Assembly (NCBI GenBank): GCA_022826245.1 | Contig: JAJDVG010000008.1 | Coordinates: forward strand, 1 to 64,000 | DNA from: Gammaproteobacteria bacterium | GTDB lineage: Bacteria > Pseudomonadota > Gammaproteobacteria > Steroidobacterales > Rariloculaceae | Length of the DNA: 64,000 nucleotides | Reading direction: 5' to 3' | Part shown: positions 7,446-44,698 of the stretch, one piece after another | Layout: each line of letters opens with the position of its first letter | Position numbering within the stretch: position 1 is the stretch's first letter | Notes under the pieces: model-generated | What the model was told of the DNA's origin: nothing | The model's database searches: none | Seen by the model: the letters and a program-made list of their open reading frames with translations, nothing else | Position numbers and translations under genes: made by a program

Positions 7446-7592
7446 CGGTATACGCCTTCGAAGGCGGCAAGTCGGGCAACGAGCCGCCAGGCTATTCGTA
7501 TTCGTATCGCTCAGCCTGAACTGCATCCGGCCGCTGTCAACCTCCGCTACTCTGCCTGACTCGGAACAACGACTGCATGGAGAAGTCGTCCG

Positions 7593-16198: not shown

Positions 16199-16336
16199 AT
16201 GTCGGACAGATTCAGCGCAATAGTTGCAGGCAAGCGCACGACGCCGGCGTCGAAATCGTGTTCGGTACCGACAGGCGTGTGCGGTAAGCACGGAGCCTGC
16301 GGCGAACTGCCTCAGTTCAACTCGACCGGATTGTAG
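16199..16336 (+). CDS. Possible 45-aa Cys-containing small protein
   Basis: ATG 16199 is preceded by AAGGAG with a 4-base spacer. The frame encodes 45 residues with three cysteines in CSVPTGVCGKHGAC and ends at TAG 16334, overlapping the last 25 bases of the ankyrin gene on the other strand. No promoter or family match was recognised. It could be chance in GC-rich intergenic DNA. Confidence 0.18.
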   Translation: MSDRFSAIVAGKRTTPASKSCSVPTGVCGKHGACGELPQFNSTGL

Positions 16337-19635: not shown

Positions 19636-19639
19636 TGGT

Positions 19640-24957: not shown

Positions 24958-27351
24958 ATGGCTGAGCAACCCGGCGCGACTCCCGACGCGGCGGTGCCGG
25001 AAACACCCGTCCTGCCGTCGTTTTCCAACTCGCTTCCTTACTTTCTTTCCCTCGGGGTGTTTCCCCTGATGGCCTTGGCCGCGGTGCAGGGTAGCTGGTG
25101 GATCGCCGCCCCGTACCTGTATTTCATGATTCCGGACGTCTTCGATGCCATGTCCGGCCCTGACAAGCGGAACATGGACCCGCGCGACACGCTCGACAGC
25201 CAGTTGTCGTGGTACAAGCTGTCGGCCTGGGCGTGGGGCATCCTGTGGCCGGTCACGTTCGTGTTCTCGCTCTGGCAGATGCTGGTATCGGACCATCTGT
25301 CGCTGCTCGAAGTCATCCTGATGGCGTTCGTGCTGACGACCGTGGGCCAGGTCTCGTTCATCATTGGCCATGAACTGATTCATCGGCGCCCGGTGTGGGA
25401 ACGCCGGCTTGGCGAGCTCATACTGGCTTCGGTTTCCTATCCGACCTACGCATCGGAACACATCTTCGTCCACCATGCCCTGGCCTGCACGCCGGGAGAC
25501 CCCGGTTCGGCGCCCAGGGGCGTAAGTTTCTGGCGTTATCTGCCGAGGGAAGTCAAGAGCAACCTCACGAGCGCCTGGGCCTTCGAGCAGCAACGGCTGG
25601 CGCGGCGCCACCTGCCGGTCTGGCACTACACGAACCCGTTCTGGCGCTATACAGGCCTGGCCGCGGCCTGGTATGCGCTGGTGTACTGGATGGGCGGGCC
25701 CTGGGCGATGCTCGGATATGCGCTATTGAGCGGCTGCATCATCCTGTCGATGAAGCTCATCAACTACGTCCAGCACTACGGGCTCCGGCGCATCCGGCTG
25801 CCCAACGGCCGCTACGAGCGAGTCCGGTCCTGGCACTCCTGGAGCGCGGCGTACAAGTTGAGCAACTGGTTCTTCTACAACATGCAGCGCCATCCTGACC
25901 ACCACATCTCCCCGGGGCGGCGCTTCCCGCTTCTGCAGCACTGCGGCGCCGATGCCGCGCCGCAACTGCCCGGAACCTACGTCGAAATGGCCGGCCTCGC
26001 GGTGCGGCCGCGCGCCTGGTTCAGGAAGATCGATCCGCTCGTGGATCACTGGCGCAAGCACTTCTATCCGGATATCGACGACTGGAGCGCCTACGACAGC
26101 CCGGCAACCGCTGAACGCCCCGAGGCGTTCGAGGAGATCGCGGAGATTTTCGCGTCGGCTCCGCGGCTGGCAAGCTGGATCGACCGGGCTCCGGAACTGC
26201 TCGACAATCTCAGGGGCCGGGAGTTCACGGATCTCGACCTGCCGAAAGGCTTCGGCCCGAACGCGGAAGTCGAGTCGATCGCGCGCCGCGGCCTCACGCG
26301 GCTCTACTGGACGCGGGAGTTCGATGTCGCCGAAATGCGCGAACGCATCGACGATTACCCGGTCCAGGACGTGCGCGAAACCGTGGACCACACGAGGAAC
26401 TGGTCCAACGACAAGGCGTTCCAGATCGCGATGCACACCCTGCGCGGCAACCTGACGCCGAGCGAGGCCGGGACGGCGCTCTCCAACATCGCCGAAGCGT
26501 CAATGGGCGCGGTACTCGCAGCGATCGACGAGGACTTCGCCGGCCGCGGCGCCACCGGTGGGCTTGCAGCCGTCGCGCTCGGCGATGTTGCAAGCGGCGA
26601 GGCGGCGCCGGGCCTCGAGCTGCGGCTCGTGCTCGTCTACGAAGGCAGCCCGGCGGCGCACTACGCGGCGCTTTGCCGGCGCATCCGCGATGCGCTGCAC
26701 ACCCTCACCCGCGACAACCTGCTGTTTGCGCCAGCGCCGCGCGACGAGACTTCCGTCGCCGCCGTCTCACTGGCTGACTTGGCGGCAGAGTTCGACGATT
26801 CCGGACTGTCGATCGAACCTGGGGACCTGACCCGCGCGAAGTGCATCTACACTTACGGCGATGCCAGGATCGAGTCGCGATTCGAGGCGGCGCGTCGCGA
26901 AGCACTCGCGCGCGAGACCGGCCGCGAGCGTTTCGGCGACGGACCCGAGCAGCGTACGGAACCTTCCGACGAGACGGCGTCCGCATTGCTCGAACCCGAG
27001 CACGGCGGTTTCGCTGCGGTCGAGCGTGCTGCCGGCAAGCTGCGCCTGCAACTCGCCGGCGGTGACGACGGCATGTGGTCGCTCGATGCGTCAAGCGCGT
27101 TCCGAACGGCCGGGGAGCGTGGCCTGATTCCCGGCGATGCCGCCGAACGCTTGGCTCGAGCCGCGACCTTGTGGCGCAATCTGCACGGCATTCGCCGGCT
27201 CATCGCCGACGGGGCAGTCGATGTCGACTCGGCCAAGCCAGGTGTCAGGGCGGCAATCGCCCGCGCGTGCGGTTTCGACGATTTCGACTCGCTGACGACA
27301 GCCGTGAACGAAACGGCAAGCCAGGCCGCCGCAGATATCGAAGCGCTGTAA
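24958..27351 (+). CDS. AlkB-type diiron monooxygenase fused to a degenerate GlnE-like adenylyltransferase domain
   Basis: Residues 1-380 form a membrane alkane-hydroxylase domain with all AlkB histidine boxes: HELIH 138-142, HIFVHH 168-173, NYVQHYG 269-275 and RHPDHH 311-316, between several membrane helices. AlkB enzymes hydroxylate terminal C-H bonds using rubredoxin as electron donor; no rubredoxin is fused or adjacent. Residues 390-797 align by eye with GlnE (glutamine-synthetase adenylyltransferase): LSNIAEASMGAV, the GLAAVALG...LELRLVLVYE region at 535-561, RAKCIYTYGDARIESRFEAA, GGFAAVE and a terminal helical bundle. The catalytic SDLDL element reads PGLEL, so nucleotidyl transfer is probably lost. 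It is convergent with the halogenase gene, 14 bases away. Confidence 0.88.
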   Translation: MAEQPGATPDAAVPETPVLPSFSNSLPYFLSLGVFPLMALAAVQGSWWIAAPYLYFMIPDVFDAMSGPDKRNMDPRDTLDSQLSWYKLSAWAWGILWPVTFVFSLWQMLVSDHLSLLEVILMAFVLTTVGQVSFIIGHELIHRRPVWERRLGELILASVSYPTYASEHIFVHHALACTPGDPGSAPRGVSFWRYLPREVKSNLTSAWAFEQQRLARRHLPVWHYTNPFWRYTGLAAAWYALVYWMGGPWAMLGYALLSGCIILSMKLINYVQHYGLRRIRLPNGRYERVRSWHSWSAAYKLSNWFFYNMQRHPDHHISPGRRFPLLQHCGADAAPQLPGTYVEMAGLAVRPRAWFRKIDPLVDHWRKHFYPDIDDWSAYDSPATAERPEAFEEIAEIFASAPRLASWIDRAPELLDNLRGREFTDLDLPKGFGPNAEVESIARRGLTRLYWTREFDVAEMRERIDDYPVQDVRETVDHTRNWSNDKAFQIAMHTLRGNLTPSEAGTALSNIAEASMGAVLAAIDEDFAGRGATGGLAAVALGDVASGEAAPGLELRLVLVYEGSPAAHYAALCRRIRDALHTLTRDNLLFAPAPRDETSVAAVSLADLAAEFDDSGLSIEPGDLTRAKCIYTYGDARIESRFEAARREALARETGRERFGDGPEQRTEPSDETASALLEPEHGGFAAVERAAGKLRLQLAGGDDGMWSLDASSAFRTAGERGLIPGDAAERLARAATLWRNLHGIRRLIADGAVDVDSAKPGVRAAIARACGFDDFDSLTTAVNETASQAAADIEAL

Positions 27352-28736: not shown

Positions 28737-29963
28737 TCAGAAGCTGTAGGTGAAATCAAAGCCGATGAAACTGTCACGCCGTCCATCGTAGGTCAGATCC
28801 TCCGGATCCGTGCTCACGACGACGATCGATTCGATGCGCATCGACCAGTTCCCCGCGAGGCGGCGCTTCAGATCGAAGTTCACGGCTCGGTAGTCATGGC
28901 TCAGGTCGCCGAGGACGCCTGCGATGAGCTCGGTGCCCTGCACGTCGTTGAACGCGAGGAAGCCCGCGATGAATACATCATTGTCCCAGACGGTTGGCGC
29001 ACGCCGGCCGCGCCCGTCGTGGTGCCACTCGGCGAGCAGCGTCAGGTCCCGGGCCGAACCGAAGAGACCATAGAGACTGCGTTCAACGCCCAGGATGGAG
29101 GCCCGGTAAGCCTCCTCCTGGCCGAACAGATTGCGCACGCCGCTACGGTAGATGGCTTCCATCTTGTAGAGCCAGGTCTCGGTCGTGATCTGCGCGTCGA
29201 TTCCGAATTGCCGGATCTGCTCGTAGTACGGGATCAGGGCTGCGTCACCGGGCGAGAGCGGCTCTGACGGGTCGGCGAACAGAAACGACGGTTCGCGGCT
29301 CGTGCCCACGAACGCGCTCAGCCCGAAATCCAGCAAGCCCACGTAGTTGCTGTAGCGGGCCGCGTAATCGACGTGCTGCTCTTCGTCGCTGCTTTCGTAC
29401 AGAGCGTCGTCGGCGATCGGGAGGCCCGAGCGCAGGCGCCCGGCAGGCCCCGGAAACGTGCGCTCGCGGTGATACGGCAGCACGAACGCTTCGGCGATGC
29501 CCCAGTCGCCTGAGATCGTCAGGTGCGCCATGGGCTGGCCGAGCTTGGGACGATCGCGCGGATGCTCGACGAGGTCCAACTGGTTGACGATATCCACGAG
29601 GTTGTTGAGTTCGGCCACGCCCCAGAAAACGCGGTCGACCCCGAGCCGCAGTTCCCAGGCACTTTCGCCCCAGTCGCCGTAGGTCAGGAAGTAGGCCTCG
29701 CGCACGTCGGCATGCGTACGCTGCGAATCGGCGCTGTCGTATCGATAAAACGGCGTGAATGTGAAGCTGCTTCCCTGTGCGGACTCCGCGTACAGCGTCG
29801 GCTCCAGGACAATGCCGCTGGCGTTTGACCGCTGCCCCGGGAAGGCCGGCGATTCCGGGTACCGCCGCCCCTGCAGGCTCAGGTCGCCCGAGAAATCGAA
29901 ATCTTGCGCCTCGGCGCCGGCGGCCACGAGCGCGAGGGCCGCGATTGTGCCGCGAAAGAGCAT
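28737..29963 (-). CDS. Outer-membrane beta-barrel protein (DUF1302-like)
   Basis: The 408-residue protein has a signal peptide (MLFRGTIAALALVAAGAEAQ) followed by alternating hydrophobic/aromatic strands. It ends in FDFTYSF, a C-terminal aromatic barrel signal. Repeated Tyr/Trp-rich strands (FTFTPFYRYDSAD, AWELRLGVDRVFWGV) fit a porin-like barrel. The ATG overlaps the stop of the LolA-like gene (TGATG). Such barrels often travel with LolA-like proteins and MMPL/RND exporters; here an RND gene lies at 42158. Likely role: outer-membrane step of an export or envelope-lipid system, by inference. Confidence 0.85.
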   Translation of the reverse strand: MLFRGTIAALALVAAGAEAQDFDFSGDLSLQGRRYPESPAFPGQRSNASGIVLEPTLYAESAQGSSFTFTPFYRYDSADSQRTHADVREAYFLTYGDWGESAWELRLGVDRVFWGVAELNNLVDIVNQLDLVEHPRDRPKLGQPMAHLTISGDWGIAEAFVLPYHRERTFPGPAGRLRSGLPIADDALYESSDEEQHVDYAARYSNYVGLLDFGLSAFVGTSREPSFLFADPSEPLSPGDAALIPYYEQIRQFGIDAQITTETWLYKMEAIYRSGVRNLFGQEEAYRASILGVERSLYGLFGSARDLTLLAEWHHDGRGRRAPTVWDNDVFIAGFLAFNDVQGTELIAGVLGDLSHDYRAVNFDLKRRLAGNWSMRIESIVVVSTDPEDLTYDGRRDSFIGFDFTYSF

Positions 29964-30835
29964 CAACGTATGCGTCGAAGTGCCGTTTGCGTGAACTCGC
30001 CGTCGTCCAGATTGGCGCCGAACTGAAAGTCGGCCCAGCGAAGCACCGTGCTCGCGCCGGTCAGGTGATTCACCATCGTCTGCTCTCCCGCCCGCCAGAA
30101 CCGATCCTGGTATTGCCGATAGTCGACAAACGTGAGCGTCTTCAGGTGCGAGCCCCTGCGGTCGTACAGCTCCATCTTCCACGTTCTGAGCTCGTCCATG
30201 TCCTGCCAGATGACCTTGCGGCTGTATCCCGATTTCTCGTCCAGCGGAAACTGCTCGGTGACCGTGCAGTTGAGTTCGCCGCAGGGTTCGTCGCGAAGAT
30301 ACCGGTACGTGAATTCCTCGACCTCCGGAGCGCTCATGTCTTCGTACGAGAACTCGCTCCCCATGAACGACCCCGAGCGCGTCGAGGCGCTGATGCGCTT
30401 GACCCTCTCCAGGGCCGGCAGGTACAGCCACTGGTCGTCCTGGGTGTTGACGTGAGCGTGGGTCAGCAGCGCGGTACCCTGCACGTCTCGCGGCCGATCG
30501 AACACGAACAGGCTCTTGTCGCCGTCGCCGGGAACCTCGAGCACCTTGAAGCGCATCTCGCGAACGCTCTCGCGACCCTGCCGGTCGCGCAGCACCATCG
30601 TCAATCCGGCGGTGAAATCCCCGAAGCCGTCGTTGCTGGCGCTTGCTTCCTGCGCAATCCGCAGACCCTTCTGCTCCGGAGTCTCGTCCTGGGCAAGGCC
30701 CTGTCCAGCCGGCATGCACAAGCACGACAACGACAGAACCAGGATGCCGAATGAAGTACCGTGGGGGAATGGAAAACGCGTCGTCGAGCCTTGGCCGGTA
30801 ATCCGTTTTCCGGCGCTTTGCTGGCGAGGGAACAT
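29963..30835 (-). CDS. LolA-like outer-membrane lipoprotein-sorting family protein
   Basis: The 290-residue protein has an N-terminal signal (SFGILVLSLSCLCMPAGQG preceded by a 29-residue basic stretch). It then shows the family's RDRQGRESVREMRFKVLE, DDQWLYLPALERVKRIS and GSFMGSEFSYEDMS blocks. These LolA-fold proteins are typically paired with MMPL/RND exporters and are thought to shuttle hydrophobic cargo in the periplasm. ATG 30835 is the best start because frames upstream run across the promoter. First gene of the operon with the barrel and halogenase genes. Confidence 0.85.
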   Translation of the reverse strand: MFPRQQSAGKRITGQGSTTRFPFPHGTSFGILVLSLSCLCMPAGQGLAQDETPEQKGLRIAQEASASNDGFGDFTAGLTMVLRDRQGRESVREMRFKVLEVPGDGDKSLFVFDRPRDVQGTALLTHAHVNTQDDQWLYLPALERVKRISASTRSGSFMGSEFSYEDMSAPEVEEFTYRYLRDEPCGELNCTVTEQFPLDEKSGYSRKVIWQDMDELRTWKMELYDRRGSHLKTLTFVDYRQYQDRFWRAGEQTMVNHLTGASTVLRWADFQFGANLDDGEFTQTALRRIR

Positions 30836-31094: not shown

Positions 31095-31139
31095 CAGGAA
31101 GGGTGCAATTCGTCCCGTTTAGATTATAAGGAGATAGCT

Positions 31140-31391
31140 ATGCGTAGTGGCGATGAAATGCTGCAACAAATCGTGGAGAAGTCAGCCCTCGACGAGGACT
31201 TCAGGCAATCGCTTCTTTCCGACCCGAAGACGACCATCAGTCAGGAATTGGGCATCACGATCCCTGAGTCGATGACCATCAAGGTCCATGAGAGCGACAT
31301 GCAGACGGTTCACCTCGCTCTGCCGCCGGATCCGAACATCACCGAGGAGCAACTCGAGGCCATCTCGGCCGGGCTTTGCTGCTGCTGGTAG
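31140..31391 (+). CDS. NHLP-leader RiPP precursor with five-residue core LCCCW
   Basis: The 83-residue peptide is a nitrile-hydratase-alpha-like leader (about residues 1-78) with the family pattern: IVEKSALDEDFRQSLLSDP, a GI-TIPESMTIKVHE stretch, HLALPPDPN, and acidic EEQLEAISAG. The SAG end fits cleavage by the C39 protease of the adjacent exporter, leaving LCCCW at the extreme C-terminus. Three consecutive Cys are ideal substrates for the YcaO cyclodehydratase (thiazolines or thiazoles), and the terminal Trp suits the halogenase homologue. ATG 31140 follows AAGGAG by six bases. The gene has its own promoter and a strong terminator and faces the convergent biosynthetic operon. Product structure is inferred; the sequence is directly visible. 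Confidence 0.93.
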   Translation: MRSGDEMLQQIVEKSALDEDFRQSLLSDPKTTISQELGITIPESMTIKVHESDMQTVHLALPPDPNITEEQLEAISAGLCCCW

Positions 31392-31458: not shown

Positions 31459-31499
31459 CCCCCGCCGCCCCTGTAAAGGGGCCGGCGGGGGTTTGTTTT
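31459..31499 (+). terminator. Rho-independent terminator of the precursor gene
   Basis: CCCCCGCCG and CGGCGGGGG pair perfectly around an inner CCCC/GGGG stem (one bulged C) with loop TGTAAA. TTTGTTTT follows. On the other strand there is no T-run, so it terminates plus-strand transcription only. Confidence 0.93.
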
Positions 31500-31517: not shown

Positions 31518-32636
31518 TCAAAAGTCCAACGCTGCCGACATCACCATGAATACGTAGGCCTTGGCCTGCCGTAGCCGATCGCCCGATATGACCAGCTTGA
31601 TGTGGTGAATGCCGCGTAGCAGGACAAACCGCCCGGACTTCGCGAACAGCGGTGTGGCTTTCGAAACCCAGCCGGCAAGCGCTGCAAGTTTTTCGGGCAC
31701 GACCAGGTCTTCCTGGCTCAGGGCTTCGAGAAACGGGTCCCAGTCGGTCAGGCCGTCGAGCCAATAGCGAGCATCCTTCGTATATCTCTGCCTGACGATG
31801 AGCGTCACGCCGAGCGCCGGACCCGGACCGTCCGCCCGCACGTCGAGATTGACCCCGGTCCGGACGATGTTCGCGCGTTCCCTGAAACGTGAGATCACGG
31901 ACTCTACGGCCTCGATCCGACCAGGCCATCCGGTGTCTTGGAGATACGAACGCACTTCCCGGTCTGCCTTGAAGCCCATGATCGCCAGACGTATCGAGCG
32001 TGAGCGAGACGGGAACACGCCAAACGAATCCATTCGCGTATCTTCCGGCTGCGCCAGGTAGGCCCGTTCGACGTTCTGCCGCTCGGCCCCGTTCCTCTCC
32101 CAGCCCACGCAGGACACGAGCGCGTCAACCACCGTGGCGACATCGTTCTCCTGACCGCAGGCGCCCAGGATCGGGCGTTCGCCGGGCCGCAGGAACATCG
32201 CCGGATGCGGACGTTCGCCGTCCCGCGCCGAACCGATGTCGTATTCGAGCATCAACTTGCGGCCGACGATGTCGCGCAGGGGCGAGTCTTCGGTATCCAT
32301 TTGTTCGAACAGCCGCGCGATCGAACTCGCGGTCTCATCGGTCTTGTCGGCCCGCGCGCGCTCCTCGAAAACCGTCGCCGATCGCGTTCCGCTCGCGAGC
32401 GAGACGCCGAAATCCGCCTCGGGCTTCGGTTCATGCAGCGGCAGTTCAAAACCGAACGGAAGGGCGCCCATCGTGATCGGATGTCTCCCGGCGCAATCGA
32501 GTACGCGCTCCCATTCGGAGTCGCCGATGAGGACCGGCGAGACCCTGTTGCGAAAGTACCCGAGCAGGTCGCCCATGGTGCCGCCCTCTTCGGCCAGACG
32601 GTCCTGGGTCAGCGTGACTGCCTGGTCAATGTCCAT
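31518..32636 (-). CDS. RiPP-cluster protein of unknown function (372 aa)
   Basis: The soluble 372-residue protein has no signal peptide or membrane helix and starts nine bases after the YcaO stop, so it is the last gene of the biosynthetic operon. Possible motif areas are LVSCVGWERNG, SRSIRLAIMGFKADREV, YLQDTGWPGR and the C-terminal GIHHIKLVISG and AKAYVFM. I do not recognise the family. It lacks the flavin nitroreductase signatures expected of a SagB-type azoline dehydrogenase. Candidates to test by structure prediction are a tailoring enzyme (for example a peptide prenyltransferase) or a leader-binding partner. Confidence 0.8.
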   Translation of the reverse strand: MDIDQAVTLTQDRLAEEGGTMGDLLGYFRNRVSPVLIGDSEWERVLDCAGRHPITMGALPFGFELPLHEPKPEADFGVSLASGTRSATVFEERARADKTDETASSIARLFEQMDTEDSPLRDIVGRKLMLEYDIGSARDGERPHPAMFLRPGERPILGACGQENDVATVVDALVSCVGWERNGAERQNVERAYLAQPEDTRMDSFGVFPSRSRSIRLAIMGFKADREVRSYLQDTGWPGRIEAVESVISRFRERANIVRTGVNLDVRADGPGPALGVTLIVRQRYTKDARYWLDGLTDWDPFLEALSQEDLVVPEKLAALAGWVSKATPLFAKSGRFVLLRGIHHIKLVISGDRLRQAKAYVFMVMSAALDF

Positions 32637-32645
32637 GCTTTCGCC

Positions 32646-34994
32646 TCATGCGATCACCGGCTCGGGATTCAGGTCGGCTTCATCGAGCGGGCGCTCGCGC
32701 CGACCCAGACTGACCGGCACGTCGTACAGGCGTCCGGGCGCGAATCTCGCCCAGAAATGGCGCATGCCCGGCACGACGACCCGCACCACCGGCATGCCGA
32801 TATCGGGCCGGGTCTGGTCCAGCACCAGGAACTCCATGCCCCCGGCTTCGACGAGCGCGCGGCAGCGCTCCACGTCGTCGCGCATGTCCGTCGATTCGAT
32901 CGCCGGATAATGCGCCGCCTCGCGCAAGGGCTCGTCGGCCGCCGGAACGAGCCACGGGCAGTCGTCGAGTCGAGCCGTCTGCCACCACCGAAGTGCCATC
33001 GGATCGTCGATCATGGGTCGGCCGTCGCGGCTTCCGGGACGCGGCAGCCAGGTCAGGCACTGGTTCAACTCGCAGATCGCGCGCAACGCCGCCGTGCGCG
33101 CGTCGGCGTGGGCGCCGGCGCCGTAGATGATGTCCTCGGTCGGCGCGTCCGGTCGGCGCGAGAGCGCGACGAAGGTCGGGATGCCGATATCGGCAGTGAC
33201 ATCGAGCATCCAGACGTCCCGTTCGCGGCGCCCGTAATAGTCCGTGGCCGAAGCGAGGTAGTCGTCGTCGAAGCTTGCGAGATCCACGGCGGGCACGCGC
33301 AGCCGGTTGTACCACCAGATGCCGAACGCATCGCGCTCTACGAGTTCGTAGAAACCCTGCAGGATGGCCTCCTCCAGGGTATTGCCCGCGGCGCAGCCGT
33401 TGGAATCGGCGATCAGGTCGGCGGGACCGCGCTGTTCGGGCGCCATGCTGTAGAGCATCGACGTCGGCATGTAGCGATGCCGCCCCTGCGTGAGCGACCA
33501 CAGCGGTGTCCAGTCGATTTCTGCGTCCGGATCGAGACGCGGCGGGACGATGTTGTACGGGTGGCCCTCGGCGTTGATGGTCGCCGCGTTGTCGAGCTGA
33601 TCGTCGCTGAAGAGCTGCGCGTCGTTCGGATGGATCGCCTCGTCCGCGCCCGTGAATTCCGTGAATCGCCTGCGCACGCGGATCTCGTCACCGTGAAAGG
33701 CCCCCGAATAACGCTCGACCGCCTCGCACAGCGCGCTGACCTCGGATTGCTCTCGCGTGCTGCCCTTGCCGGCGCTCTTGCTGCGCAGGCTGCGCCTGAG
33801 CGAACTCAGGCTCCGGCTTCTGATGCCGAGATTGCTTCCCGCCCAGTAGACATGCAGCCACGAATCGGTCTCGTCGGTCGTGCGCGCAAGCCAGGTCACG
33901 ACGCCGCTGATCGGGCTTACGAGGTGGCGGTACTTCGCCAGCGTGACTTCCGGGGTAACGGTACGCACGCCGCCGCTGTTGAGATGGGCCTTGGGGCTTG
34001 CGTTCAGGGACAAGGCAACCGGCGGTCGATCCGGCCGATGCAACGCCGCGTCGCCACAGGCCGGGCATTGCGGCCGACGCATCACACGATGCCGCGAACT
34101 TGCGAACGTGCCAACGTTCATCGCGATCGCGTGGTCGTGAACCGGTGCCGCTGCATCGAGCACCAGCCACTTGACGATCTCCGCAGCGATCAGGCCATGG
34201 AGCGCTTCGAGGACGACCGGCTCCGCCGCGAACGGCTTGAAAGCAGCCTCATCGCCCGCGATGTTGCGCAGGAAATGGTGGACCTCCTGGTGGCTGCGCA
34301 GGCGGTAGGCCAGACACTCCCAGCAGGGTCCTTTCTCATCGGCGTGAAAGACCGGGCCGAACAGCGCCTCGACGCCGCGCGGCCGCGCGAGCATCCACGG
34401 GGCTCTCTTCCGAAGCTGCCCCCGATTCACGTCGGCAAGAGCCGCTTCGAGATAGTCGTCGCAAACGATGACGGTGAGCTCGGCGGCATCGGTTCCCACG
34501 CGGGCGCCGCTCGCTTGCAGGCGCCTGATCAAGCGGCCGTCGTCACCGTCCACCGCGACGCATGCCTCCGCAAGTCGTTGTTCGACCCAGCGCGGCGAGG
34601 CGCCGAGCGACGACCACCAGGCTGCCCGGGCCGCGTCCATGCCGTGATCCGCCGAGACGACATAGCCCCGCGCGGACAGCGAAACGATGGCCGCGAGAAC
34701 ATCGGTCGCCGCATGAGCGCCGGCGAGCTTCGCGACAATCTCCTCCTGCGGATGCCGACCGTCGAGCAGCGGCAGCAGATCGCGATTCAGCTTGCCGTGC
34801 AGCAGGGTGTTGAAGGACTCCGAGACCAGCAGCGTCTGCCGTTCGCCGATGTCGCGGAACTGCAGGTGGGGAGCAAGCGCCGGCAGCTTGACGAGACCCC
34901 GGTCCGCAGGAGTGGTTCTCGTCAGTATCCCGCGCCGTGAATTCGTGTCCGTCCGGGTTTTCACCTGGAGATTCCGTGCCGGATCAGCCGGCAT
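32646..34994 (-). CDS. Fused ThiF-like/YcaO azoline cyclodehydratase
   Basis: The 782-residue protein fuses an N-terminal E1/ThiF-like leader-binding half (about 1-340) to a C-terminal YcaO half. The N-terminal half has a Zn site from CWEC and CPAC. The YcaO half shows SEVSALCEAVERYSG and SNGCAAGNTLEEAILQGFYELVERDAF-type ATP/Mg-binding motifs, split here for brevity. YcaO proteins phosphorylate the amide backbone to cyclise Cys or Ser onto the preceding carbonyl. The C-terminus reads LNPEPVIA rather than PxPxP. It overlaps the preceding gene by 11 bases. The fused form is the TOMM F/C-D arrangement, and its substrate is presumably LCCCW. Confidence 0.93.
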   Translation of the reverse strand: MPADPARNLQVKTRTDTNSRRGILTRTTPADRGLVKLPALAPHLQFRDIGERQTLLVSESFNTLLHGKLNRDLLPLLDGRHPQEEIVAKLAGAHAATDVLAAIVSLSARGYVVSADHGMDAARAAWWSSLGASPRWVEQRLAEACVAVDGDDGRLIRRLQASGARVGTDAAELTVIVCDDYLEAALADVNRGQLRKRAPWMLARPRGVEALFGPVFHADEKGPCWECLAYRLRSHQEVHHFLRNIAGDEAAFKPFAAEPVVLEALHGLIAAEIVKWLVLDAAAPVHDHAIAMNVGTFASSRHRVMRRPQCPACGDAALHRPDRPPVALSLNASPKAHLNSGGVRTVTPEVTLAKYRHLVSPISGVVTWLARTTDETDSWLHVYWAGSNLGIRSRSLSSLRRSLRSKSAGKGSTREQSEVSALCEAVERYSGAFHGDEIRVRRRFTEFTGADEAIHPNDAQLFSDDQLDNAATINAEGHPYNIVPPRLDPDAEIDWTPLWSLTQGRHRYMPTSMLYSMAPEQRGPADLIADSNGCAAGNTLEEAILQGFYELVERDAFGIWWYNRLRVPAVDLASFDDDYLASATDYYGRRERDVWMLDVTADIGIPTFVALSRRPDAPTEDIIYGAGAHADARTAALRAICELNQCLTWLPRPGSRDGRPMIDDPMALRWWQTARLDDCPWLVPAADEPLREAAHYPAIESTDMRDDVERCRALVEAGGMEFLVLDQTRPDIGMPVVRVVVPGMRHFWARFAPGRLYDVPVSLGRRERPLDEADLNPEPVIA

Positions 34995-36291
34995 CTTCCA
35001 GACTTTCGACGAGACGCTCCAGAGCTTCGATACAGAACGCGGTGGTCAGGGATTCGGAGGCGTGCCCGATCTGGCCAACGGCGCCCCATCGCAGCGATTG
35101 GTCGCCAAACGCGAGAACCTCGGGCCAGCTACCGTCCTCGCGTTGTGAACTCATGAACCTCTCCACTTCGCGTTTCGCGTCGATGCGGTCAAGGCTGCCG
35201 ATATTGTAGAGCGCCGATATCGCCTGAGCGGTCTGAAGGACATTGCCGAATGCTCCCTGCGGGTCGCGCAGGCCGAGGATGCGATCGGCGAGTATCGGGC
35301 GCAGTCGATCGAGGGCGGGACGGGCTCGGACCATGGCGCGCGTGGTTGCGTAGTAGATCGTGACCTTGTCCGGATACCACTTGGACGAACCGTCGAGGCG
35401 GTCTTCGGCAATCATGGATTCGAGCCATCGTTGTGCGTCCCTCGTTTCGGGGTGGTCGCCAAGGTAGGCGATGACGTTCGCATTGACGACGGGGTCGGCT
35501 TCGATACGAAAGCTCGACACGACGCCCGGTTCGTCGGCAGCGAGAACCCAGGTCAGAAAACAGCCCTGCTCGTCGCGATTCGCCAGCATCCGGGGAACGT
35601 TGCGTCCGAGCAATATCCAGGGATGCGTCCCGATGACGAGCGAACACAGTGTCGTGCTGTCCAGATCCTGCGGAAGATGCCGGTAGTAGCGCCAGAACCC
35701 GGGATACTCCATCGTGTCGGCGAGGTAAGCCTTCGTGCGCGCGCAGATGTTCCTGGCCCGCGCATCATCGCTGCTTTCAAGAGCCAGTGCGCAGAACGCC
35801 GAAACGAACGCGGGCCTTTCGAAATGGCGCGGTATGTCGGGGTCGGCGATATTGAAGCGGATGCAGTGCCACGCCCCGTTCCCGTCGATCGCCGATTCGA
35901 GGAATTCGAGGCCGCGGCGGATGCTCCGGCGACCTGCCTTCGCCAGCGCCCCGGCGTCGAGGGAACTCATCCCGGCAGCCGCCGGATTCCCGGCGGGAGG
36001 CCGAATCGGCGGCGCCGGGTCGTACATCGTCTTCTTCAGGAACTCGAGCGAGGCTGCGCCGGTCCTCGCCGCCTCCCGTTCTTCCTCGCTGAACTTGCTC
36101 TTCGGTGGAAGCACGAGGTGCGTCACGGCATCGGTTTCTTCATGCACGCGAATCTCGTGGACCTCGTCCAGCATCACGCCGAGTTCCCGCTCGATCGCAT
36201 CCGCGGGATCGGCGAGCAGGCGATCGCGAAACTCGCTGTCCTTCGCTGCTTTCGCGAGGAGGCGTTCGGTCGCGTCGATGGGCCCCTTCAT
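34984..36291 (-). CDS. NHLP-leader domain fused to terpene-cyclase/prenyltransferase-like alpha/alpha-barrel
   Basis: The 435-residue protein begins with an NHLP-type domain (about 1-80: ERLLAKAAKDSEFRDRLLADP, then IRVHEETDAVTHLVLPPKSK), clearly related to the precursor leader. A helical-repeat domain of the squalene-hopene cyclase/prenyltransferase superfamily follows, with DLDST at 209-213 (compare class II DxDD) and a QW-like FMSSQREDGSW near 380. ATG 36291 lies five bases after the ABC gene stop. The leader-like domain may dock the enzyme on the same partner as the precursor, or it may itself be processed. Function is unknown: the fourth Asp of DxDD is Ser. Confidence 0.85.
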   Translation of the reverse strand: MKGPIDATERLLAKAAKDSEFRDRLLADPADAIERELGVMLDEVHEIRVHEETDAVTHLVLPPKSKFSEEEREAARTGAASLEFLKKTMYDPAPPIRPPAGNPAAAGMSSLDAGALAKAGRRSIRRGLEFLESAIDGNGAWHCIRFNIADPDIPRHFERPAFVSAFCALALESSDDARARNICARTKAYLADTMEYPGFWRYYRHLPQDLDSTTLCSLVIGTHPWILLGRNVPRMLANRDEQGCFLTWVLAADEPGVVSSFRIEADPVVNANVIAYLGDHPETRDAQRWLESMIAEDRLDGSSKWYPDKVTIYYATTRAMVRARPALDRLRPILADRILGLRDPQGAFGNVLQTAQAISALYNIGSLDRIDAKREVERFMSSQREDGSWPEVLAFGDQSLRWGAVGQIGHASESLTTAFCIEALERLVESLEDAG

Positions 36292-36295
36292 GAGT

Positions 36296-39241
36296 TCAGG
36301 CGACTTGCCGCTTGACCAGTTCCCTGAACACCCCGTCAACCTCCATGAGCTCGCCGAAGGAGCCCGATTGCACGACCTTTCCGGCCTGCATCACGTAGAT
36401 GCGGTCAGCCTGTTCGAGGGTCGACAGGCGATGGGCGATGACGATGCGCGTCGAGGTCAGAAGCGCCAGGTTGTGCATGACCTCGGCCTGGCTTTCGTTG
36501 TCGAGCCAGTTGGTGGCCTCGTCAAGCAGCATGATGCGCGGATTGCCGATCAGTGAGCGGGCGATGGTGACGCGCTGACTCTCCCCGCCCGACACGACGG
36601 AACCGCTCGCCCCGACCATCGTCATCATGCCCATCGGCATGGCCTTGATTTCACGTTCGATTCCGGCGGTTCTGGCCGTTTTCCACACTTCCTCGGTGGT
36701 CGTACCCTCGTGGTGCGCGACGATGTTGTCCCAGAGATCCTGGGGATGCAGTCGCACCGACTGCGGTACCGCGCCAATCTTGCGGCGCAGTTGTTTCAGG
36801 TTCAGGTGTTTCAGATCGCGTCCGTCGTAGTACACCGCCCCGGCGGATGGCCGGTCGATGCCGAGCGCGAGCCGGAACAGCGTGCTCTTGCCAGCGCCGG
36901 ACTCGCCGGCGATCGCAATGAACTCACCGGGACGGGCGCGGATCGTGACATCGTCGAGAATCAGCGGGCCGTCGGGATCGTAGCGGAACGAAATGTGGTC
37001 GAACAGGACCTCGCCACCCAGACGTTCGACCGGCGCGCCCTCGATCTCGCTCTCCGGAACCGCGGCGAGTATCGGTCGCATCTGGTCGAACGCCGGCAGC
37101 ATGGCGGCGATGGCGCCGAACGATTCGCCCAGTCGGGCAATGGCGGACTGGAAGATGATGAAGACGGTGTAGACGACCAGAAAATCGCCGACCGGGACGC
37201 TCCGGTCGCCCATCGTGACCACTGCCAGGAGCAGTACGCCAGCGGCCAGAAACGGGAGCGCGGCGCCGAACGCCCGCGAATGGCCTTCAAGCGCGCCGAG
37301 TTCGAGTTCCGCGCGTTTCTGCTCGCGATAATCCCGCGCCCAGATGGCGAAAGCCGATCCTTCGGCGTTTTCCACGCGCAGCTTGGCGATGCCCTCCACG
37401 ATCTGGAACAGGCGGCCGGCGACGCGGCGCGCAGCACTGATCATCCGCCCGTAAGGCGGCATCTGGCGCAAGCCGAGGATCACGGTCACCAGCAGCGAAA
37501 CGACGCTGAAGACGAGCGCGATGACCCCGAGCGTCGCATCGTAGAAAAAGATGACGGCGAAAACCGGAAGCAGAAAGATGATCGACAACAGGCTCTCGGC
37601 GACGACGCCCTGCAAGCCGTCGCGCAGGTTCTGGAACGTCATGCCCGACATGGCCAGATCGCCGGCCGAATGGCCATGCAGAAGACCTGGCGGAAGGCGC
37701 ATGAGGCGGTCCCAGAAGGCCGCTTCGACGCGCGACGCCGAGCGCCCCTCGAGCCGCATCATCGCGTTGCTTTGCAACAGATGCAGCAGCGCGCCGAGCA
37801 GCCCGAAAACCGCCAGCGTCACGGCCACGCCGTAGAGCACTCCGGCGCTGCCGCCCGCCACGATATGGTTCGCGACGAATCCCAGCGCCAGTGCCGGCAG
37901 CAGTCTGATCAACCCGCCCGGAAGGCCGGCGATCACGAGCCGCAGCAGATCCCCGGCCGAGCCATGCAAGGCGATACGCAACAGGTCTGCCGGTTTCACG
38001 TTCCCCGAAGGCAACGGCGGATAGAACATCCAGGCTTCCTGCTGCAGCGCCGCGGCGCGATCGGCCGTCATCCGCACACTGCGCTTGCTGACCGGATCGA
38101 CCTCCCGGTAGCCCCCGAACATTCCCGGCAGCAGCGCGACCGGCTGGCCGTCCACGGCACGAAACGCCAGTAGTGCGTTGCTGTCGCCGCGCCACCACTT
38201 GCCCTCGCCCTTGAATCTCACGCGCCGGGCGCGTATTCCTGACGCATCGAGAATGTCGACGAGGCCGACAGGGGAGTCCGACGTTCCCGAGCGCCCCGGA
38301 ATCCTGAACTCGATGCCCTGATGGCGGCCGACGATCTTCAGGGCATCCGCCAGCGCCGTGTCCTCGACATCGGCATCCCGGTCGACCGGCAGGTCGTAGA
38401 TGTTGAACAGCCGCTGCCGGGCAGTTCTTTCGGCCGTGCGGTGGCTGCTTGTTCGATCGCGTTCGAGATTCGCATCGTCGACCACGGCCAGGCGGCGGTT
38501 GAGGCGCTCCAGCGCGAAAGCCACCGCGTGAAAGGAGGCGAGCGCCGGCAGCAGCGTGCCCTCGCTCACCAGCGTTTCGGTCGACTTGCCCGAAATCGTC
38601 GCCTCGTCGAACAGGGTGAGCCAGCTCGTCCGCGTCAGCGGCATTACCGGCTCGTGCGGGCCGCTTGCCTCGTCGAGTGCCGCCTGGTCGAGCATGTCCA
38701 TGAACAGGCTCGCTCCGAGCGACGGTTCCGACACCCATACGACTCCGCGCCGTGCGGACAGCGTACCGGGGCGCAGGGTCCGGTCCAGACCCGCTTCGGC
38801 CAGCGCGGTCGGGCGCGGAAAACGGGTTACGAAACGTGCAAGCGCGTCAGTGATGTCGGTCAGCCAGGCGTCGATCTGTTCCGCGAGTTCTGCCGGAGCA
38901 ACTTCCGACAGCGAGGATGCCGGCACGCGTTTCAGAAGCGTTCCGGGCAGGCCCTTGGCCACGAGGCTCAGCGTCGTACCCTTGTCTCCGTCGTCCTGTT
39001 CGTCGGGCGCGACACCCGGCAGCAGGGTGCCCGACTCACGGCGCAGCAGATGCTGCGGCGCCGCCTGTTCCACGCCGTCCCGGTATTCGACCAGGAACAG
39101 ATCGACGGCGCCCTCGTCGATGAACCAGGCGCTGCCCGGATCGTCGAGATTCACCGGCTGGTTGCCGGCGCAGGGCACGGATGCGCCGGAGCGAGCCGCG
39201 AGTTCGGCGATCGATGTGAATTGCGTGCCTGTGTCCTGCAT
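36296..39241 (-). CDS. NHLP-type RiPP export ABC transporter, permease/ATPase
   Basis: The 981-residue protein has a long, non-catalytic N-terminal region of about 400 residues, then six membrane helices. The ATPase carries Walker A GESGAGKST (near 770), signature VSGGESQRV and Walker B IMLLDEATNWLD. This is the layout of the second ABC subunit found beside NHLP precursors. The ATG overlaps the C39-ABC stop by one base (TGATG), so the two are coupled and probably form the heteromeric exporter. The N-terminus lacks a C39 peptidase. Confidence 0.92.
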   Translation of the reverse strand: MQDTGTQFTSIAELAARSGASVPCAGNQPVNLDDPGSAWFIDEGAVDLFLVEYRDGVEQAAPQHLLRRESGTLLPGVAPDEQDDGDKGTTLSLVAKGLPGTLLKRVPASSLSEVAPAELAEQIDAWLTDITDALARFVTRFPRPTALAEAGLDRTLRPGTLSARRGVVWVSEPSLGASLFMDMLDQAALDEASGPHEPVMPLTRTSWLTLFDEATISGKSTETLVSEGTLLPALASFHAVAFALERLNRRLAVVDDANLERDRTSSHRTAERTARQRLFNIYDLPVDRDADVEDTALADALKIVGRHQGIEFRIPGRSGTSDSPVGLVDILDASGIRARRVRFKGEGKWWRGDSNALLAFRAVDGQPVALLPGMFGGYREVDPVSKRSVRMTADRAAALQQEAWMFYPPLPSGNVKPADLLRIALHGSAGDLLRLVIAGLPGGLIRLLPALALGFVANHIVAGGSAGVLYGVAVTLAVFGLLGALLHLLQSNAMMRLEGRSASRVEAAFWDRLMRLPPGLLHGHSAGDLAMSGMTFQNLRDGLQGVVAESLLSIIFLLPVFAVIFFYDATLGVIALVFSVVSLLVTVILGLRQMPPYGRMISAARRVAGRLFQIVEGIAKLRVENAEGSAFAIWARDYREQKRAELELGALEGHSRAFGAALPFLAAGVLLLAVVTMGDRSVPVGDFLVVYTVFIIFQSAIARLGESFGAIAAMLPAFDQMRPILAAVPESEIEGAPVERLGGEVLFDHISFRYDPDGPLILDDVTIRARPGEFIAIAGESGAGKSTLFRLALGIDRPSAGAVYYDGRDLKHLNLKQLRRKIGAVPQSVRLHPQDLWDNIVAHHEGTTTEEVWKTARTAGIEREIKAMPMGMMTMVGASGSVVSGGESQRVTIARSLIGNPRIMLLDEATNWLDNESQAEVMHNLALLTSTRIVIAHRLSTLEQADRIYVMQAGKVVQSGSFGELMEVDGVFRELVKRQVA

Positions 39242-41451
39242 CAGCCTGACTTGACCAGCTTGAAATAGCTCCCGTCCTCGTCCGCAATCAGCTCATCGTG
39301 TGTGCCGCGCTGCACCTCGACGCCCTTGTCGAGCACGATGATCTCGTCGCAATCGCGCACGGTGCTGAGACGGTGCGCCACGATCAGGCAGGTGACGCCG
39401 CGCCGCCGCAAGGCATCGTCGACGTATTCCTCTGTCGCGGCGTCGAGCGCGCTGGTCGCCTCGTCGAGCACGAGCATCGTCGGATTGCCCACCAGCGCGC
39501 GGGCGATTTCGAGCCGTTGCCGCTGGCCGCCGCTGAAATTCGCCCCGCCCTCCTCGACCTGGGTCGAGTATCCTTGCGGTCTCTGGAGAATGTCGTCATG
39601 GATGCCGGCATCGCGCGCCGCGGCGATGATGACTTCATCCGGAATGGCGGGGTTCCACATGGTGATGTTGTCGCGTACGGAGGCGGAAAAGAGCACGACC
39701 TCCTGATCCACCATGGAAATGGATCGCCGCAGCACTTCATCGGGAATCGCGTCGCGCGGATGGCCGTCAAGCAGGACATCACCCGACCAGGGCTGATAGA
39801 TGCCCGAAACCAGGTGCGCCACGGTCGACTTGCCGGATCCGCTCGGACCAACCAGCGCAACCCGCTGCCCCGGCTTGATCACGAGGTTGAAGTCCTTGAT
39901 CAGGGGAGGCCGGCTCTTGTTGAAGCCGAACGTGACGTCGCGCAGTTCGAGCTGGCCCGCAAGCTGGAGCCGGCCGTTGAATGTTGAAATCGAGTCGGTT
40001 GCCGAATTCCGGCGGCTGAATACAGGGTCTTCGGCGGTCTTCGAGATGTCTTCGAGACGTTGCAGATCCGTCTCCAGCGCCTGGCGTTCGTCGGCGAACT
40101 CGAGAAAGCGCCCGACAGGCGCCAGAAACATCTCTGCGAGAATGTAGATCGCGACCAGCGTGCCGAGCGTCATGTCCCCGGCAATGACCATGCCCGCCCC
40201 CAAGGCCAGTATCGCGGCGCTGCGCAATGCGGCGATTAGGCCCGGAAGCGCTGTATTGACATGGCCGAGTTGCGCATGGAACTGGCGGGCATGCAGTTCG
40301 CGCGCCTGCTGACCGCTCCAACGCGAATAGAAGCGGTCGTCGGAGCCCGTCATGCGCAGGTTGTCCGCATGACTCAGCATCTGCATGCCGAAACCGATCA
40401 GCAACCCCTGTTCGCGCCGCATCGCCTGGATTCGAACGCGGCGTTGCGCGTTGAGGAAGTGGGCGAGCACGCCGTGCAGGAGAGCCAGCAGAAGCACGGC
40501 CAGCGTGAGAACGACGTCGTAGGCCAACATGGCGACGAGCAACACCGCGCTCATCGCCATGTCGATGATGAGCACGAGAAACTTGTCCGTCAGATTCCTT
40601 GCGACCCTGTCGATGGACGAGACGCGGTCGGTCAGGTCGCCGACGAGCCTGTGGGCAAAGAACTCCACCGGCAAGCGCAGCAGCCGCGACAGGCCCTGAT
40701 CGTAGCCGATCACCGAGATTCGGACCGCGAGTCGCTGCAGGAAGCGGTGCTTGAGCAGGGACAGGATGTATACGAGGACGCCGCCGCCAATCAGGGCCGC
40801 CACGATCGCGCCCCACGGGCCGCCGTTTTCGAGAACTTCGTCCACGAAAACGCTCAGGGATACGGGAATGGCCAACGCCAGCAGCGTCAGCATGAGCGCG
40901 CAGGCAACCGCGCCGGTCAATACGCTCCACTCGCCGGCGAGCAAGGCGCTCAATTGCGCCAACAGGCCCTGTTGTTCGCCGCCGGGCTTGAAATCGTCGC
41001 CACGCGTGAATCGCAGCGCGATTCCACTGTAGCCCCTGGTGAACTCGGCAGCCGAGAGCCTGCGGCGTCCCGTGGCCGGGTCATTGAGGTAGAAGTGACG
41101 CTCGTCGATCCCTTCGACGACGACGAAGTGGCTGAATTGCCAGAATACGATCAGCGGCAACTCGAGCTTCTGGAGCTGATGCGCGCGTATGCTGAGTCCC
41201 TTGCACTCCAGGCCGTAGTGTCGAGCGGCCCGCACGATGCTCGCGGCGCTGCTGCCGTCCCGGCTCACCTCGCACTTGTCGCGCAATTCGGTAAGCGGCG
41301 CCCAGCGTCCGAAGTAGCCCAGTACGATTCCGAGGCAGGCAGCACCGCATTCCGTCGCATGCATCTGCAACAGAACCGGCGTGGTCAGCCTTTGCGTCGA
41401 AGGCTCCGATCCGGCCTTGCGGCCGCCCCGCTTGAAGATGCCCGACAGCAT
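39241..41451 (-). CDS. C39 peptidase-ABC exporter of the RiPP cluster
   Basis: The 736-residue protein has an N-terminal C39 protease with Gln29, catalytic Cys35 (ECGAACL), His in FSHFVVVEG and Asp in LNDPATG. A six-helix permease follows, then an ATPase with GPSGSGKST, FSGGQRQRLEIARAL and MLVLDEATSALD. C39 domains cut leaders after Gly-Gly or Gly-Ala-type sites, so the ISAG end of the precursor is its expected target. The gene starts one base after the HlyD-like stop. It exports mature peptide to the periplasm. Confidence 0.95.
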   Translation of the reverse strand: MLSGIFKRGGRKAGSEPSTQRLTTPVLLQMHATECGAACLGIVLGYFGRWAPLTELRDKCEVSRDGSSAASIVRAARHYGLECKGLSIRAHQLQKLELPLIVFWQFSHFVVVEGIDERHFYLNDPATGRRRLSAAEFTRGYSGIALRFTRGDDFKPGGEQQGLLAQLSALLAGEWSVLTGAVACALMLTLLALAIPVSLSVFVDEVLENGGPWGAIVAALIGGGVLVYILSLLKHRFLQRLAVRISVIGYDQGLSRLLRLPVEFFAHRLVGDLTDRVSSIDRVARNLTDKFLVLIIDMAMSAVLLVAMLAYDVVLTLAVLLLALLHGVLAHFLNAQRRVRIQAMRREQGLLIGFGMQMLSHADNLRMTGSDDRFYSRWSGQQARELHARQFHAQLGHVNTALPGLIAALRSAAILALGAGMVIAGDMTLGTLVAIYILAEMFLAPVGRFLEFADERQALETDLQRLEDISKTAEDPVFSRRNSATDSISTFNGRLQLAGQLELRDVTFGFNKSRPPLIKDFNLVIKPGQRVALVGPSGSGKSTVAHLVSGIYQPWSGDVLLDGHPRDAIPDEVLRRSISMVDQEVVLFSASVRDNITMWNPAIPDEVIIAAARDAGIHDDILQRPQGYSTQVEEGGANFSGGQRQRLEIARALVGNPTMLVLDEATSALDAATEEYVDDALRRRGVTCLIVAHRLSTVRDCDEIIVLDKGVEVQRGTHDELIADEDGSYFKLVKSG

Positions 41452-41452
41452 C

Positions 41453-42004
41453 CTACGATCGCGTCATTCCGAAAATTGCGGCCGGAGATTGCCTGCCGAG
41501 TTCGATGACGATCCGGCACTCCCGGCCTGCGAGGGAAGCGAAGTCGATTTCTTCCGCGAGCGCGATATCGACGCGGTGCACGGACACCGGCACCGCGGAC
41601 TCGAACTCCCCCAGTCCCTCCATCAGGCTGACGGTGGCAATCGTCACGACCTCTCCGCCAAGCGTGTCGGCTTCTCCGTCAGTCGTGGTCAGCTCGATCT
41701 CGGCCTGCATGCCGGCTTCGATGCTCGGCGCGACGTCGCTCGCGAGCCAGACGAGCGCTTGCACCGACCGATTGCCCTCGCCCGGGTTTCCGCCGCTCTC
41801 GATGAGCAAACCGTCAACCGCAACGCTGCGGGCGACGTTGCCGAAGATGAGCCATGCCGCGACGATGACCAGCAACGCCGCGACACCCGCGACGAGCAGA
41901 CGTTCCCTCGGTGTGGAAATCGTCAGCAGCCGGTCGAGCTGTTCGCGCTCTTCCTTCGCGTCGGCGACTGTATCGTGAAATGAGTCGAATGGATTGTTGA
42001 ACAT
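41453..42004 (-). CDS. Short HlyD-like adaptor of the NHLP exporter
   Basis: The 183-residue protein has one membrane helix (LLVAGVAALLVIVAAWLIF, about 41-60) followed by a periplasmic domain with barrel-like VPVSVHRVDIALAEE and GRECRIVIELG. It resembles the NHLP secretion-protein family but lacks the lipoyl and coiled-coil hairpin that usual HlyD adaptors use to reach an outer-membrane channel. ATG 42004 is preferred to the longer frame from 42067. First gene of the downstream biosynthetic operon after the RND gene. Confidence 0.78.
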   Translation of the reverse strand: MFNNPFDSFHDTVADAKEEREQLDRLLTISTPRERLLVAGVAALLVIVAAWLIFGNVARSVAVDGLLIESGGNPGEGNRSVQALVWLASDVAPSIEAGMQAEIELTTTDGEADTLGGEVVTIATVSLMEGLGEFESAVPVSVHRVDIALAEEIDFASLAGRECRIVIELGRQSPAAIFGMTRS

Positions 42005-42037
42005 GACCGTGCGTAGCCGCTCCCTGGATATCGGATC

Positions 42038-42067
42038 AGTGTACCGTCCGCGCAGTCCGGTCCACAA
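42038..42067 (-). promoter_or_regulatory. Candidate promoter of the RiPP biosynthesis/export operon
   Basis: On the minus strand TTGTGG and TACACT (four of six -10 matches) are separated by 18 bases. The start site would be about 27 bases before ATG 42004. The 153-base gap after the RND gene allows an internal promoter. Confidence 0.38.
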
Positions 42068-44476: not shown

Positions 44477-44698
44477 GCGGCGCTTGTCCAAAGGACTGGA
44501 GTCGCTGGCCGCCCGGATCTCGCCGACAACCGAATGGGGACATGCGGTTGCCGGGGAAAGCCGCCCTGTGCGCGTGCCCGCAACGTATCAAAAATCATCG
44601 AGGTATACCAAATCGCCGTCTCGGCCATTGCGGACTGCCGAAGTCCTCTGGCGTGCGACTGCCAGCGTGGGCACTCGACGCGTGGCAGCCCCTGTATC

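Follow-up and report, generated by a model that had tools for sequence, protein, structure and literature searches.

The window analysed here is a stretch of 64,000 nucleotides from a gammaproteobacterium of the family Rariloculaceae (contig JAJDVG010000008.1 of assembly GCA_022826245.1), and it carries a probable srp cluster, a locus for a ribosomally synthesised and post-translationally modified peptide, around a short precursor gene of the srpE type (Table 1). The precursor protein reads MRSGDEMLQQ...EEQLEAISAG-LCCCW and then stops. Its leader belongs to the NHLP class, named after the nitrile hydratase fold, and matches TIGR03793 with 73.5 bits (cut-off 50.9) over residues 6-78, which is the full domain and therefore leaves five residues as the core. 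A preliminary description of this DNA had proposed the same layout, namely a complete NHLP leader ending in ISAG and followed only by LCCCW, with three cyclisable cysteines and a C-terminal tryptophan, and both the translation and the profile match bear it out. The masses it had calculated for the core were reproduced on recomputation: 626.20 (unmodified), 572.17 (three thiazolines), 566.12 (three thiazoles), and 600.08 (three thiazoles and one chlorine). With one bromine, the values are 650.08 for three thiazolines and 644.03 for three thiazoles.

The srpE frame is a real gene under selection. It was compared with the best 80 of 162 confirmed stretches in named genomes, which are thus its nearest relatives. 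Codon differences were synonymous in 2330 cases and nonsynonymous in 654, and base differences by codon position numbered 655/286/2587, so that third positions account for 2587 of 3528. All 80 loci end in AGLCCCW and a stop; the leucine and cysteine codons of the core vary synonymously, and this drift, together with the codon statistics, shows selection on the peptide. In a protein database, 679 precursor homologues were found at E 1e-3. Among the best 120 of them, whose endings were read, 118 finish in LCCCW, one in LSCCW, and one in LRCCW, and none has residues beyond the tryptophan. Homologues with a longer core, or without the cysteines or the tryptophan, had been named beforehand as speaking against the proposed core; the close relatives do not do so, whereas distant paralogues do carry cores lacking tryptophan.

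The same core, LCCCW, has been published for SrpE, on which the YcaO enzyme SrpC and the brominase SrpI act in srp clusters from sponges (PMC10858898, PMC10286304; the papers cited here were available in part, and statements on them refer to those parts). A full-text search for LCCCW gave those two papers and one about leaf traits. Such a short core had been held to be exceptional, a view that was given up because LCCCW is already published and because of the number of homologues. SrpI uses an LX4L motif (67-72) in the stretch 66-72 of the SrpE leader (PMC10858898), and the leader in the window has NITEEQL at residues 66-72, with isoleucine at position 67 where leucine is expected. The published numbering of SrpI includes Lys84, Tyr102, and Tyr110 as well as LysC fragments 81-135 and 85-135 (PMC10286304). 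K96, K100, Y118, Y126, and K151 of the halogenase P0123 fit these five positions at a single offset of 16, with no further lysine between K100 and K151, the match being one to published residue positions rather than to the full SrpI sequence. This offset implies a start at codon 17, which is a GTG. The core, the YcaO protein, the NHLM-like exporters, the spacing of the SrpI residues, and the leader motif together led us to assign the locus to the srp clusters; an NHLP leader, LCCCW core, YcaO cyclodehydratase, and SrpI-type brominase spacing are common to both, and no defining difference was seen.

Table 1. Predicted features of the srp-type locus, with positions in the window
Feature	Position	Strand	Basis and remarks
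AlkB-like di-iron oxygenase (residues about 45-374) with C-terminal GlnE-like domain	24958..27351	+	Profile match, alignment
SrpI-type flavin halogenase, P0123	27366..28640	-	Trp-halogenase-family match; open frame extends to 28688
DUF1302-like protein, possibly outer-membrane	28737..30725	-	19.5 bits, cut-off 23.2
Ribosome-binding-site-like AAGGAGAT	31128..31135	+	By eye; 4 nucleotides between its end and the srpE ATG
srpE-type precursor open reading frame	31140-31391	+	83 amino acids, ATG start (translation)
NHLP leader, residues 1-78, ending ISAG	31140..31373	+	Profile match and translation
Core LCCCW, residues 79-83	31374..31388	+	Stop codon 31389-31391
Terminator-like GC-rich hairpin, then T run	31459..31499	+	By eye
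P0124, predicted ABBA/indole prenyltransferase fold	31518..32636	-	372 amino acids; converges on srpE; structure model and fold searches
SrpC-like protein: leader-binding domain TIGR03882 fused to YcaO cyclodehydratase TIGR03604	32646..34994	-	Both over cut-off
P0122: NHLP domain fused to class II terpene-cyclase-like toroid	34984..36291	-	Open frame to 36339 (TTG); codon 17 is ATG
NHLM ABC2-like exporter subunit	36296..39241	-	690 bits, cut-off 709
NHLM ABC1-like exporter with C39 peptidase	39241..41451	-	842 bits, cut-off 853
Short HlyD-like secretion protein	41453..42067	-	Weak TIGR03794 match
MMPL/HAE3 transporter	42158..44491	-	Hopanoid transporter HpnN models also matched, below cut-off

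The preliminary description had expected a minimal tris-thiazoline or tris-thiazole peptide. The cysteines for it are present, but the product is probably not minimal, because the cluster also encodes proteins with predicted prenyltransferase and terpene-cyclase folds and an AlkB-like protein. What is new at this locus, given that the core was already known as SrpE, is this predicted terpenoid arm together with a family of mini-cores lacking tryptophan. In the structure model, P0124 appears by fold searches as a prenyltransferase barrel of five alpha-alpha-beta-beta repeats, and its residues H344, H345, K347, R216, and Y361, invariant in 18 sequences, are candidates for binding the prenyl diphosphate. 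It has 939 homologues, and none of the best 120 listed bears a Pfam domain. A toroid fold was seen for P0122 in the model and in fold comparison. Searched against PDB sequences, full-length P0122 hit drimenol synthase (E 1.7e-4), and its cyclase part alone gave no match there at E 0.01. Many homologues of P0122 start at the ATG of codon 17. Its invariant DLDS precedes T or S and, by counting along the alignment only, lies close to AsDMS D333 and MstE D109. The AlkB-like protein has the histidine boxes HELIH, EHxxxHH, QHYG, and QRHxDHH, aligned to 8f6t, and they are kept across the homologue alignment A4 with the exception of one sequence (L087, 13848-16175, minus strand) in which the first box is deleted. 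Among 43 well-flanked loci, P0122 and the YcaO gene were each linked to srpE in 40, P0124 in 37, and the AlkB-like gene in 34.

The GlnE-like half of the AlkB-like protein was considered as an active adenylyltransferase. This was rejected, since the DxD pair, which we take to be the catalytic motif of GlnE, is not conserved in alignment A4. The same half also matches part of separate frames of about 1544-1558 amino acids in five related genomes, with 32-33% identity (G045:C53, G424:C3, G425:C49, G426:C36, and G056:C3).

A comparison of related genomes separates the enzymes by the type of core. Distant paralogues diverge after the cysteine triad (CCCGI, CCCGV, CCC-stop, and others), and the sister precursors end in mini-cores such as MCCCGI, LCCCG[IVLA], LGCCGI (one case), RCCC, LCCC, LCCCL, LCCCT, LTCCGC, and LSCCI. 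Each enzyme was looked for in 20 genomes; sampled genomes with no match were left aside, and so were G014, G020, and G026, which have just weak matches in longer frames (E 4e-6 to 6e-4). Eleven of the genomes carry LCCCW (G000, G001, G002, G016, G019, G045, G056, G423, G424, G426, and G427), and the six of these that belong to genus g21 (G045, G056, G423, G424, G426, and G427) carry MCCCGI as well. YcaO, P0124, and NHLP-cyclase were each found in 10 of the eleven, the AlkB-like protein in 8, and an SrpI-class halogenase in 8. The last class was defined by E < 1e-30, so weaker matches (E 1e-19 and above; G000, G001, G002, G016, and G019) were left uncounted, and G427 was counted on a fragment of 127 amino acids only. 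The seven genomes with Trp-less cores only (G032, G425, G235, G428, G429, G431, and G432) all have YcaO, P0124, and the AlkB-like protein, and none has the halogenase or the NHLP-cyclase. Two members of the same family without a precursor, G422 and G430, have none of the five enzymes. Genus g21 includes genomes of both types. The 18 precursor-bearing genomes come from four genera only, so that the counts are not independent; completeness was 88% for G016, 66% for G426, 76% for G429, and 92% for G002, and single in-frame stops occur in matches to the cyclase (G045 and G427), YcaO (G056), and the AlkB-like protein (G427).

The sister cores lacking tryptophan thus amount to a natural experiment that parts two sets of enzymes. 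We read YcaO, the prenyltransferase-fold protein, and the AlkB-like enzyme as a shared arm acting on X-C-C-C, and the brominase and the NHLP-cyclase as an arm that goes with the tryptophan. Throughout the whole genome of G032, neither an SrpI-class halogenase nor an NHLP-cyclase was matched. At locus L104 of that genome, precursors with the Trp-less endings LCCCGV (7385-7639) and RCCC (16936-17187) lie together with two tandem P0124 homologues. As P0124 is kept where tryptophan is absent, the latter cannot be its sole prenyl acceptor, and the acceptor may be either the tryptophan in LCCCW cores or a position that every core has. A separate NHLP cluster in G423 (L158, contig C14, about 9.0-19.5 kb), with no YcaO match on 20 kb, encodes three precursors, whose C-termini read GG-FAPTNDSY, GG-IGDIDTW, and GG-GCVN, together with a halogenase-like frame (502 amino acids) and two P0124-like proteins with 27-32% identity. 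The P0124 family therefore also occurs beside short-core NHLP precursors that have no cysteine triad, two of them aromatic-ended. At this single locus, such an occurrence hints at what a peptide prenyltransferase might show.

We consider it likely, with a probability of roughly 0.8, that the locus is an srp cluster of the SrpE kind, in which LCCCW receives three thiazolines and a bromotryptophan, likely also a cyclised terpenoid, and is then exported. By analogy with the published orthologues, the NHLP leader would dock the enzymes, with NITEEQL as the binding site of the halogenase, and the SrpC-like YcaO protein would cyclodehydrate C80-C82 to thiazolines. The SrpI-type halogenase, in which the residue spacing is matched, would brominate the indole of Trp83 at C6, as published for the orthologues. 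Folds, motifs, and linkage suggest that P0124 would add an isoprenoid to the core, with the AlkB-like enzyme as a putative oxidant and P0122 as a putative cyclase. In the last step, cleavage behind AG and secretion would fall to the C39 exporter, with possible help from the MMPL and DUF1302-like proteins. No azoline dehydrogenase of the SagB/McbC type was found among the window proteins scanned (Pfam and NCBIfam, a subset of the open reading frames), and this speaks for thiazolines, provided that they are not oxidised by the AlkB-like enzyme. The fully specified product, a brominated tris-thiazoline pentapeptide with an isoprenoid set by P0124, oxidised by the AlkB-like enzyme and cyclised by P0122, with the Trp-less sisters neither brominated nor cyclised, is proposed tentatively and stands a little short of an even chance.

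Several observations weigh against a terpenoid arm or against a fixed enzyme set. In published work, azolines and bromine were installed without P0124, P0122, and the AlkB-like protein: SrpC yielded partial products in Escherichia coli, and MprC/MprD together with SrpI completed the modification (PMC10286304). The Foldseek template modelling scores of P0124 are just 0.39-0.56, the protein has no match in Pfam or NCBIfam at E 0.01, and neither it nor its alignment matched a prenyltransferase in these libraries or among PDB sequences. P0122 has an invariant DLDS and not the textbook DxDD, and its model reaches a predicted local distance difference test score of 79.8 with the NHLP part poorly modelled. 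The AlkB-like protein of the window shares just 44-57% identity with most homologues, and both it and P0124 are retained in clusters without tryptophan. The halogenase was nearby in only 31 of the 43 well-flanked loci. G002 and G016 carry LCCCW and have no SrpI-class or AlkB match, G001 has an LCCCW precursor with none of the five enzymes, and in 6 of the 80 loci (L028, L075, L077, L083, L094, and L102) no full cluster gene lies on the available 3-17 kb.

The product might accordingly be the published tris-thiazoline, 6-bromotryptophan pentapeptide, with P0124, P0122, and the AlkB-like protein drifted to another role (scaffold, chaperone, or immunity) or serving another pathway. Azolines and bromination are indeed the sole srp steps described in the partly available literature, P0124 has no detectable prenyltransferase sequence match, and the GlnE-like tail is an example from the cluster of domains without their catalytic pair. 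However, linkage of the three proteins to srpE comes close to that of YcaO, they keep invariant polar residues, and G422 and G430 lack all three as well as the precursor, so that we regard this simpler product as rather unlikely. Cleavage elsewhere, giving a mature core longer or shorter than LCCCW, would be in keeping with processing sites that presumably vary among NHLP systems. It appears improbable, as the core follows AG or GG in each of the listed variants, the C39 peptidase of the exporter shows C, H, and D, which we take to be its catalytic motif, and LahT150 released LCCCW in modified form from a chimera, MprEX-LCCCW (PMC10286304). The preliminary description had also allowed for a chlorinated or unhalogenated tris-thiazole, and the window does encode a protein of the Trp-halogenase family. 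P0123 fits the SrpI pattern, though, and SrpI has been described as strictly a brominase (PMC12615548); chlorination was rejected on this ground, and with the dehydrogenase missing from the scanned proteins this product is very improbable.

Among known systems, NctPC comes near to the proposed arm: this fusion of an ABBA-barrel prenyltransferase with an MstE-like cyclase geranylgeranylates tryptophan and cyclises the chain (PMC13290415). Next to a ribosomal peptide that bears tryptophan, the window likewise has a predicted ABBA-barrel prenyltransferase and a predicted MstE-like class II cyclase fold, but it has two genes, an NHLP domain on the cyclase, an azoline proteusin as substrate, and a brominase and an AlkB-like enzyme in addition. 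The retention of P0124 where tryptophan is absent counts against a simple copy of the NctPC scheme. MppC/MppI of Moorena (PMC11791876, PMC12715784) resemble the window in joining leader-dependent prenylation and SrpI-like bromination in a single cluster and differ by a lanthionine macrocycle and a Nif11-type leader, with neither terpene cyclase nor YcaO named in the available text. The Mpr and nostatin azoline proteusins (PMC12455567) share the NHLP leader and YcaO azolines; the available text of that paper names no SrpI or terpene-cyclase set for them and reports that MprC is unable to accept the SrpE leader. For srp itself, no mention of a prenyltransferase, terpene cyclase, or AlkB-like oxygenase was found in the partly available literature, the annotations of the founding 2021 JACS paper aside, nor was a description of an isolated end product. 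If the terpenoid arm holds true, hunts for bare peptides of 572-650 Da target the wrong mass, and the product would become findable. It would also be a further route, beside NctPC, to terpene-cyclised ribosomal peptides, and would provide a predicted prenyltransferase family without a Pfam domain among the best 120 of its 939 homologues. The leader-domain-fused enzyme would in turn be relevant to the organisation of tailoring enzymes by NHLP leaders.

By their record titles, the best 80 loci come from Gamma-, Alpha-, and Deltaproteobacteria, Acidobacteria, Gemmatimonadetes, Nitrospira, Binatia, and Rhodothermales. The YcaO protein is 82% identical to that of a gammaproteobacterial locus (L024), 82% to an alphaproteobacterial one (L039), and 78% to an acidobacterial one (L033), and this high identity across lineages suggests that srp clusters spread horizontally. 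Of 369 genomes sampled from the class, just 2 gave a match, the genome of the window among them. The host is seldom named in the record titles, and most isolates presumably came from sponges. Srp clusters occur in sponge microbiomes and are called highly distributed in the title of the 2021 JACS paper (PMC9426513). An orphan LCCCW precursor, 82% identical, lies in G001, a 97% complete genome (L107, 10421-10669).

Both exporter genes miss the curated cut-off of the models TIGR03796 and TIGR03797 and are therefore labelled NHLM-like only; ABC1 and ABC2 queries match each other in locus comparisons. The MMPL protein, which would suit a lipophilic product, is encoded next to the precursor in the Trp-less clusters of L147-L151, L153, and L157 and was not found at L104. 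A third NHLP-like match in G000 (C30:204293-204475, L003) was rejected as a precursor, as it probably represents the alpha subunit of a nitrile hydratase, judging by VCTLCSCYPW, which we take to be the motif of that subunit. Beside the srp cluster lies a likely restriction-modification pair of a BsuBI/PstI-type endonuclease and an Eco57I-type adenine methyltransferase (46696-49586, minus strand). Elsewhere in the window, a 656-amino-acid ankyrin-repeat protein (16312-18282, minus strand) adjoins DUF1552 and DUF1592/1588/1587/1585 (planctomycete-type cytochrome) genes at 18283-22024.
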